From NCBI GenBank assembly GCA_020047815.1, contig JAIFNG010000035.1, positions 1 to 64,000 of the forward strand: 64,000 nucleotides of DNA. The letters run 5' to 3'. A program made the translations under genes and the position numbers. Each line of letters begins with the position of its first letter. Position 1 is the stretch's first letter. The notes below the pieces were generated by a model that ran no database searches, was not told the origin of the DNA, and saw only the letters and a list, made by a program, of their open reading frames with translations. This document shows positions 38,410 through 39,527 of the stretch, one piece after another. Source of the DNA: Anaerolinea sp. GTDB lineage: Bacteria; Chloroflexota; Anaerolineae; Anaerolineales; Villigracilaceae.

Positions 38410-38646
38410 TTATTTCTGGTCTTCGACGCCGATCCAAAGGTGTCCAGGCATGACAGGACGATAGGAGCGAATGGTGAGTTTTCCGAGCTCGACCTGCTTT
38501 TTACCGCCATCCAACATGCTGGGGTGTACCAGGCAAAGGTCCGGGGTGCGCCCAAATTTTTTACTGTAATAATCCATGGCCTTCTGGATTTTTACACTTA
38601 ATGTAGTGCGGGGGTCATTGTCAAACCATAACATTCCAGTGTGCAT
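38410..38646 (-). CDS. Small conserved-looking protein of unknown function
   Basis: A 78-residue protein. ATG 38646 is preferred because AAAAGGAAAAATATC precedes it. It begins MHTGMLWFDNDPRTTL, has a helix (KIQKAMDYYSKKFGR) and a strand-rich second half (CLVHPSMLDGG, LTIRSYRPVMPGHLWIGV). No domain is recognised. It lies 51 bases downstream of the FtsK-like ATPase gene, in the same direction and before the shared terminator, so it is likely the second gene of a palindrome-controlled operon. Confidence 0.75.
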   Translation of the reverse strand: MHTGMLWFDNDPRTTLSVKIQKAMDYYSKKFGRTPDLCLVHPSMLDGGKKQVELGKLTIRSYRPVMPGHLWIGVEDQK

Positions 38647-38697
38647 GATATTTTTCCTTTTTATTCGGAAGTAAAACTTCCACACTCCAAAAATCGG

Positions 38698-39480
38698 TTA
38701 ATCAATTGTTGGAGCCCAAAAATTCAGCCAGTTGTTTCCTTCGCGCATGGTAAATTGTGAAGCCGCCAGATCGTCAAATATTTTGTCTGGATCATTGGCT
38801 ATGAGATGTGAGTTATGTGCATCCTGGGTATGACCAAACAGGCGTGTGCGGAAGAAACCAAGCCATGCTTCCATGTTGTGTGCGCTGTTTGGGTTGATGG
38901 TAACGATGGGCCAGATCCGACGGCTTGGGCCGCGCAGTAAAAGCCAGCGTAAGTTTTGCTCTGTTTGAGGGTTGATGTTTATCAGCGTCTCAAGGTCGTC
39001 AATAAGCAGCAGGATGAATTGCCTGTTTTCCTTGTTGTTATGTGCCCATGTCACGAGAGACTGCAGCAGTTCACCTGCTTCACTTCCCTGGGCTGGATAG
39101 ATCCCTACGACACTCTGGCTGTCCTGAAAGTCTTTCCACTCGTCAGGGTATGGGGTAATGACCCCGGATTGAACATCAGATGGACTGTGCAATAATTCAA
39201 TGGAGCGGGCGATCATTTGCAGGAACGATGTTTTTCCGCAGGCAGCATCGGCAGTGATCAGAAGGGGACCAGGGACGGGATCACCCAGATCCAGCAGGAC
39301 AGACAAGCCGTCCTCTGCAAGTCCGAGGAAGAGCGCTGTATCGGGCAGCGGAGAACTGTCGGCAATGATGGAGCTTAATGTGGGCAGATCCGTCGCTGGC
39401 GCGGTTTGCAGGGTTTGCCTTTCGTCGGCAAGTTCAGTTAATGTGTTTATCATCAGGGAGAAGTGGTTTAATTTATCCAT
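38698..39480 (-). CDS. Short FtsK-like P-loop ATPase
   Basis: A 260-residue cytosolic ATPase. A Walker A variant ADAACGKTS is at about residues 77-85, Walker B FILLLIDDLE at about 150-160, and the following LRWLLLRGPSRRIWPIVTIN and LIANDPDKIFDDLAASQFTMREG resemble the FtsK/HerA-type core. It lacks membrane helices and the gamma DNA-orienting domain of full FtsK, so it is not the division translocase. ATG 39480 has no ribosome binding site; the codon directly abuts a perfect palindrome overlapping the promoter. Role unknown; damage-inducible control is suggested by the operator. Confidence 0.8.
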   Translation of the reverse strand: MDKLNHFSLMINTLTELADERQTLQTAPATDLPTLSSIIADSSPLPDTALFLGLAEDGLSVLLDLGDPVPGPLLITADAACGKTSFLQMIARSIELLHSPSDVQSGVITPYPDEWKDFQDSQSVVGIYPAQGSEAGELLQSLVTWAHNNKENRQFILLLIDDLETLININPQTEQNLRWLLLRGPSRRIWPIVTINPNSAHNMEAWLGFFRTRLFGHTQDAHNSHLIANDPDKIFDDLAASQFTMREGNNWLNFWAPTID

Positions 39481-39502
39481 ATTAGAACAACTGTTCTAAT
39501 AT
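39479..39502. promoter_or_regulatory. Perfect 24-bp palindrome with SOS-box-like core
   Basis: ATATTAGAACA (39479-39489) and TGTTCTAATAT (39492-39502) are exact inverted repeats around two bases. The core GAAC-AACT-GTTC (39485-39496) is the GAAC-N4-GTTC pattern of LexA boxes in Bacillus and many Actinobacteria. It overlaps the -10 box and touches the start codon of the minus-strand ATPase gene, so a bound repressor would block transcription. Confidence 0.75.
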
Positions 39503-39527
39503 TACATTCAAAGATTTAAATTGTCAA
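39499..39527 (-). promoter_or_regulatory. Sigma-70-type promoter of the FtsK-like operon
   Basis: On the minus strand: TTGACA (39527-39522), a 17-base spacer, TAATAT (39504-39499). The predicted start is about 39492, inside the palindrome, leaving a leader of roughly 12 bases without a Shine-Dalgarno sequence. Confidence 0.75.

Follow-up and report, generated by a model that had tools for sequence, protein, structure and literature searches.

A conserved LexA-type operator precedes an operon for a probably disabled FtsK-type ATPase and a small protein in Anaerolineae

A two-gene operon of an Anaerolinea sp. encodes an FtsK-type ATPase, probably a disabled one, together with a small protein, and it lies behind a LexA-type operator that is conserved at orthologous loci. 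Control by LexA as part of the SOS response, which the preliminary description of this DNA had proposed, is strongly supported by the conservation of the operator relative to controls, by related boxes at lexA, uvrB, and a radical-SAM gene, and by distant relatives that lie beside lexA or recA. On balance, our sequence comparisons favor an SOS-regulon operon in which the disabled ATPase and a small effector would slow chromosome segregation or division. Below, the window is the whole stretch of 64,000 nucleotides that was analyzed (positions 1 to 64,000 of contig JAIFNG010000035.1), the class is Anaerolineae, and the phylum is Chloroflexota.

The operon is read from the minus strand. Its promoter is sigma-70-like and has, as first described, a −35 box TTGACA (39522 to 39527) read from the sequence, a spacer of 17 nt, a −10 box TAATAT (39499 to 39504), and two genes behind. 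A palindrome at 39479 to 39502 contains the LexA-type operator AGAACAACTGTTCT (39484 to 39497). This palindrome is the longest inverted repeat in the 64 kb (scan for arms of at least 9 nt and spacers of at most 4 nt), and it extends from the last 4 nt of the −10 box, across the presumed start site, into the ATG at 39480, whose first two bases it includes. The overlap is as originally reported, but the palindrome is not a perfect one of 24 bp, consisting instead of two 11-bp arms and a 2-nt AC spacer. The first gene (38698 to 39480, minus strand) encodes the 260-aa ATPase, a protein with an FtsK/EccC-type motor domain, and the second (38410 to 38646, minus strand) encodes a 78-aa protein without a convincing Pfam match, which most likely starts at ATG 38646 and not at GTG 38685 because its relatives align from the methionine at 38646. 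The two genes end, as had been stated, in an intrinsic terminator 3′ of the small gene (38345 to 38313, minus strand; a hairpin of 13 pairs and then a T-run), one of three such sites in the window against 1.7 expected. No Rfam family reached the gathering threshold between 38200 and 39800. On the opposite strand, downstream of the operon, are acpS-like and M16-peptidase-like genes (named by eye) that recur in many relatives. There was no division gene among the fetched neighbors (acpS-, M16 peptidase-, and tuf-like by eye), which counts against a division role.

The evidence for LexA control begins with the operator at orthologous loci. Among the best 80 of 208 loci found through the small protein, 78 hold the ATPase, and the exact core GAAC-N4-GTTC occurs at 65 of these 78 in the stretch from −300 to +200 relative to the ATPase frame, whereas each of ten control patterns occurs in 0 to 1 of the same 78 stretches; as the loci are related, they are not independent cases. 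At least 150 nt of upstream sequence was available at 72 loci of this set. Of these, 62 have the exact core and nine of the other ten have a high-scoring box with one mismatch; at the tenth (L088), the ATPase frame is in several pieces. A set of 28 loci, the window's own among them, overlaps the first (partly the same genomes, so that the counts are not additive) and gave 23 exact cores and 5 with one mismatch. Fifteen related promoters, restricted to those with TTGAC and an exact box and including three pairs identical in sequence, agree in the −35 box and in how far it lies from the operator, and most have the start codon immediately after. The bare core is found twice in the window, where 0.84 is expected and where two were reached in 19 of 100 shuffles; it is the conservation of the operator at orthologues, not the count of cores in the window, that exceeds chance. 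Scored with a matrix made from 61 exact boxes, the operator reaches 36.8 and the next-best site in the window 7.4.

The preliminary description had also asked whether the two genes stay together in related genomes. The ATPase gene adjoins the small gene at 25 of the 28 loci (own included) and at 78 of the best 80 of 208, and the gap between them is −20 to 60 nt in 67 of the 73 loci measured among these 80. A motif rule excluded the small genes of L109 and L147, and L229, a fetched stretch of 100 bases, was set aside. ATPase homologues at L027, L035, and L038 have no small gene detected alongside, and genomes G280 and G351 hold two ATPase copies each.

The motif GAAC-N4-GTTC serves as the LexA motif in Gram-positive bacteria and Dehalococcoides. 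In the same genome as the window, boxes with one mismatch to the 14-mer lie upstream of lexA, uvrB, and a radical-SAM gene, with matrix scores of 7.2, 12.9, and 21.0, respectively. LexA and UvrB exceed their NCBIfam cut-offs, and the radical-SAM protein is of a DNA-repair type (E = 1e-78, below the cut-off of the NCBIfam model); according to a passage of PMC9380542, a radical-SAM gene is a LexA target in Streptomyces venezuelae too. A LexA site had been expected to recur upstream of lexA, recA, and imuB. Upstream of lexA it does, with an exact core, although this box alone is weak evidence because its score is not above that of the second-best site in the window. For recA, which is absent from the window's own assembly (88.8% complete), we turned to 29 loci of the genus (28 genomes; the fragment L176 was left out of 30): the exact core occurs at none of them, and GAAC-N4-GTGC adjoins TATACT at all 29, with low matrix scores of 0.1 to 17.3. 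This variant is also used by some ATPase promoters. The single Y-family polymerase found in the own assembly, DinB-like by eye, has no box. Across the whole genome, the motif with at most one mismatch occurs at 58 places, against 113 for its reversed pattern. There is thus no enrichment, and this count was dropped as evidence in favor of the orthologue promoters. Fifty of the 58 places were listed and 34 were inspected with their surroundings, of which 11 lie outside large frames.

Three exact boxes elsewhere in this genome were recorded. The first, AGAACAAACGTTCT (L001/L052, G000:C59:101-114), lies in a TTGACA promoter before a gene that starts MAQYRNPLVDGLKTI and is cut by the contig end, and that is possibly another SOS gene of the genome. 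The second (L002 1501-1514, G000:C91:16519) lies in a TTGACA promoter; the protein encoded behind it has 151 aa and matches no NCBIfam model, and a 248-aa frame comes next. The third (L003 1501, G000:C98:78593) lies between two convergent gene ends and has no obvious LexA target. The fetched stretches of the two long FtsK genes of the genome contain no exact box; about 105 nt upstream of one of them is a LexA-like site with two mismatches (L248 3363-3388, matrix score 9.1), which recalls the SOS promoter of Escherichia coli ftsK.

By its sequence profile and its predicted structure, the ATPase is an FtsK/EccC-type RecA-like beta motor domain. A profile search of solved structures placed the FtsK/SpoIIIE-type EccC first and Rho next, and no Pfam cut-off was exceeded; an AAA or NACHT identity drawn from low Pfam scores was dropped, as the profile and fold searches point to EccC and FtsK. 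The AlphaFold model (pLDDT 89.4) matched EccC (E = 8e-12) and FtsK (E = 1.6e-10) in Foldseek, and in VIA the FtsK motor (Z = 24.1, RMSD 4.2, 236 aligned) and EccC domains (Z = 23.7) tied. TcpA and HerA defense complexes were also among the structural matches. The preliminary description had recognized an FtsK-type fold lacking the membrane and gamma parts. This was confirmed, since residues 28 to 260 of the 260 align to motor domains, and the losses go further: the alpha domain has no Pfam match and no room N-terminal of the motor, and the catalytic glutamate is gone as well.

The active site suggests how this motor may have changed. Walker A is ADAACGKT (residues 77 to 84), Walker B contains D161, and the position of the catalytic glutamate holds D162. 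Among 74 relatives that, like the window protein, have the beta domain only, this position is D in 49, G in 16, N in 5, E in 3, and H in 1, and the P-loop lysine is kept in 73; among 33 relatives with both alpha and beta domains, it is E in 31 and R in 2. Because the nucleotide-binding lysine is kept and the alpha, gamma, and membrane parts and the glutamate are lost, the protein most likely binds ATP without pumping DNA. That ATP is bound but not turned over would be the simplest reading, and the ATPase is probably a disabled FtsK relative. In a single-sequence search (E = 1e-8), it was found in 50 of 396 class genomes. The module is dispensable, since the ATPase went undetected in a 98%-complete member of the genus (G179) and in eight more of the order's listed genomes.

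Relatives elsewhere in the class point to where the pair may have come from. Three of them, of 364 to 431 aa, exceed the Pfam cut-offs of both FtsK_alpha and FtsK_SpoIIIE. In a tree of the motor region, 30 beta-only proteins, including that of the window, formed one clade (FastTree 1.0, UFBoot 100), which grouped with the alpha+beta proteins of L178, L179, L180, L191, and L197 (FastTree 1.0, UFBoot 98), and the beta-only and alpha+beta group stood apart from 31 full FtsKs (0.997, FastTree only); long branches call for caution here. The input comprised the 30 beta-only proteins (every second row of set A3 plus four of the order), 22 alpha+beta proteins, the 31 full FtsKs, and one other. Besides the window protein, set A3 comprised 49 of 75 available sequences and set A4 49 of 78; set A6, once 33 had been cut by length and E value, comprised 22 of 29 alpha+beta proteins. 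As the IQ-TREE supports above the 35-leaf clade are low (61, 59, and 37) and the separation from full FtsKs is taken from FastTree only, we claim no branching order for the alpha+beta groups. At the five alpha+beta loci that group with the beta-only clade, a lexA-like gene precedes the ATPase in 5/5, an exact box lies between the two in 4/5, and the small gene follows in 4/5. At two of them, L178 and L197, the alpha+beta proteins behind the lexA-like gene have arginine in place of the catalytic glutamate, possibly a step toward a disabled motor.

The neighborhoods of 39 fetched loci of the class (20 selected through the ATPase, 19 through the small protein, and many on short contigs) resemble a larger operon. 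A lexA-like gene was found at 21 of the 39, a protein with two hydrophobic helices (by eye) at 24, a DUF6504-like protein at 13 (one confirmed by Pfam), and, downstream on the opposite strand, a holA-like gene at 10 (one confirmed); these four counts lean towards a match because each homemade model was built from some of these loci (6, 9, 3, and a few, respectively). The ATPase is present at 13 of the 19 loci chosen by the small protein, and all 13 have the two-helix protein. Between 1,100 nt upstream and 150 nt inside the ATPase or small-protein frame, the exact core occurs at 27 of the 39 loci, twice or more at 15, and each of six control patterns occurs at 0 to 1 of the 39. Boxes lie just outside the tested stretch at L193, L228, L236, and L242 (by eye), and eight further loci have none there. 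The two-helix protein has a weak holin match in PHROGs (E = 0.0024), and its profile, run on 41 genomes of the window's family, gave 3 hits, all of them weak and none in the window's own genome. Taken together, the larger operon looks like a set of LexA boxes, an alpha+beta mini-FtsK, a two-helix membrane protein, a DUF6504 protein, and the small protein, often with lexA, and the two-gene operon would be its reduced form, the direction of this change being our own reading of the sequences.

Two further arrangements were seen among these loci. At L193, a LexA-type box is followed by recA and then, on the same strand, by an adjacent alpha+beta mini-FtsK. At L185, L186, and L242, the mini-FtsK comes after LexA-type boxes and a tandem pair of lexA-like frames, an arrangement that suggests a LexA paralogue dedicated to the operon.

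The small protein is under purifying selection (dN of 0.04 to 0.16 and dS of at least 0.9 or saturated against seven relatives) and has a predicted alpha/beta fold in the order strand, helix, and four strands. Searches with it gave no confident match: the best Pfam hit among 50 members had an E value of 0.025, none convincing; solved structures searched by sequence gave antibodies at E = 0.29; fold searches reached E = 0.76 in Foldseek against the PDB and Z = 5.4 in VIA; BFVD gave an unnamed viral protein over 61 columns (E = 0.019); and named phages and plasmids gave no match. It is nonetheless widespread, with matches in 147 of 396 class genomes against 50 of 396 for the ATPase, figures that are not like for like (profile at E = 0.001 and single sequence at E = 1e-8, respectively), and with matches in 86 of 400 phylum genomes, 56 of these outside the class. 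At 16 loci of other classes, the exact core lies within 400 nt upstream of the small gene in 10 and six control patterns in 0; some of these loci have a DUF6504-like neighbor, and boxed copies occur without a detected ATPase. One other-class locus, L265, has an alpha+beta ATPase and the two-helix protein and no box.

The small protein also occurs on 22 IMG/VR contigs (L309 to L330) that are predicted to be viral and would represent phages or other mobile elements. At 0 of the 22 does a core lie within 400 nt upstream, and at 0 does a beta-only ATPase adjoin, although two have another FtsK-type ATPase farther off. Four sampled contigs have neighbors matching integrase, ParA, helicase, and methyltransferase families, and in the small-protein tree the viral copies are scattered among chromosomal ones (by eye; supports were not extracted). 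Because it occurs alone on these contigs, the small protein may not need the ATPase. This distribution, its boxed copies without a detected ATPase, and its wider range, with the caveat on thresholds given above, would suit a different division of labor: the small protein would be the active agent on the SOS or recombination machinery, in a role like that of DinI, RecX, or PsiB, the ATPase would be an ATP-gated carrier, and mobile elements would have taken the gene to tune the host damage response. We regard this as unlikely, since the searches that were run gave the small protein no confident fold or sequence relative, and its adjacency to the ATPase in the window's order is very strong.

Among known systems, FtsK and SpoIIIE share the RecA-like beta motor domain with the window ATPase, whose class relatives keep the alpha domain, mostly with a KANFPxR-type motif. 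The window ATPase itself has neither the catalytic glutamate nor the alpha, gamma, and membrane parts, and it is additional to two long FtsKs of the same genome. EccC/EssC of type VII secretion is the best match by sequence profile and tied best by fold, but the window ATPase is a single free-standing domain behind an SOS-type operator, with no secretion genes noticed nearby. In Streptomyces, a passage of PMC4255298 describes SffA, a weakly FtsK-like protein that localizes to sporulation septa together with SmeA, a small membrane protein. There, too, a second FtsK-like protein is encoded beside a small-protein gene, and class relatives of the window have a two-helix membrane protein near the mini-FtsK. 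The Streptomyces pair is under developmental, not damage, control according to passages of PMC4850268 and PMC4255298; the window partner is a predicted alpha/beta protein, no membrane partner was found in the window's family, and the two systems are likened by gene layout, not by sequence.

The lexA-imuA-imuB-dnaE2 cassette likewise joins LexA to an inactive RecA-fold ATPase, since PMC3765255 describes ImuA as a RecA paralogue that is inactive and occurs together with LexA, ImuB, and DnaE2. The disabled motor could by analogy take the part of ImuA as a mutagenesis accessory in error-prone synthesis, and the operons with lexA-like genes and a DUF6504 protein, as well as the holA-like gene at 10 of the 39 class loci, would fit. 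We nevertheless think this quite unlikely: the window operon has an FtsK-family ATPase, other small partners, and no polymerase gene, with neither imuB nor dnaE2 among its two genes before the terminator; neither gene was noticed by eye in the fetched neighborhoods; the single Y-family polymerase found in the assembly is unboxed; and the matches of the ATPase are to EccC, FtsK, and Rho, and none is to ImuA, for which NCBIfam includes models. About equally improbable is a defense or mobile-element module. Anti-phage systems make use of FtsK/HerA-type ATPases, HerA defense complexes are among the structural matches, the small protein is carried on predicted viral contigs, and in PADLOC an alpha+beta relative scores on SspH, mads_8, HerA, and PtuA and the window ATPase weakly on mads_8. 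Any FtsK-family motor could give such scores, however, and the two-gene operon lacks an effector gene and is kept, LexA-boxed and beside the same neighbors, across many genera. That an unrelated local regulator binds the palindrome instead of LexA is highly improbable, for although palindromes suit many dimeric repressors, related sites occur at lexA, uvrB, and the radical-SAM gene of the same genome, a one-mismatch version is present at 29/29 of the genus's recA loci, and in distant relatives such sites adjoin lexA-like or recA genes.

For the SOS-regulon reading that we favor, a mechanism can be sketched from the sequence. LexA on the operator, over the −10 box and the start site, would keep the operon off, and DNA damage would relieve this repression. 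The ATPase, derived from an FtsK motor, would bind ATP without pumping DNA and might be a switch or decoy whose target is the housekeeping FtsK or, near the septum, damaged chromosomes. The second gene would supply a small effector, the most widely kept part of the module, and the pair would slow or redirect chromosome segregation and division during DNA repair. A role in segregation or division is plausible, not proven, by analogy, because PMC4080785 describes dinH, an SOS promoter, as driving E. coli ftsK, and because SffA and SmeA are found at septa. A bolder version is doubtful, and we offer it tentatively: the Chloroflexota may have an SOS checkpoint of their own, built from a LexA-controlled, split FtsK in which motor, membrane adaptor, DUF6504 protein, and small effector are separate, sometimes with their own lexA. 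In the window's order, this would have become an ATP-binding pseudo-translocase acting on the housekeeping FtsK, and the effector would be useful enough for mobile elements to have taken it up time and again.

A lineage-specific factor that holds back division or segregation during DNA repair is a frequent part of SOS responses. No such factor or module for Anaerolineae was found among the open-license PMC matches listed, and the module described here supplies testable candidates for one. The pair thus gives a way into the DNA-damage reaction of mostly uncultured bacteria. It also suggests that an FtsK motor has been becoming a non-hydrolyzing protein, and it brings to light a small-protein family without a Pfam model that is apparently used by the damage response across several classes and by mobile elements.
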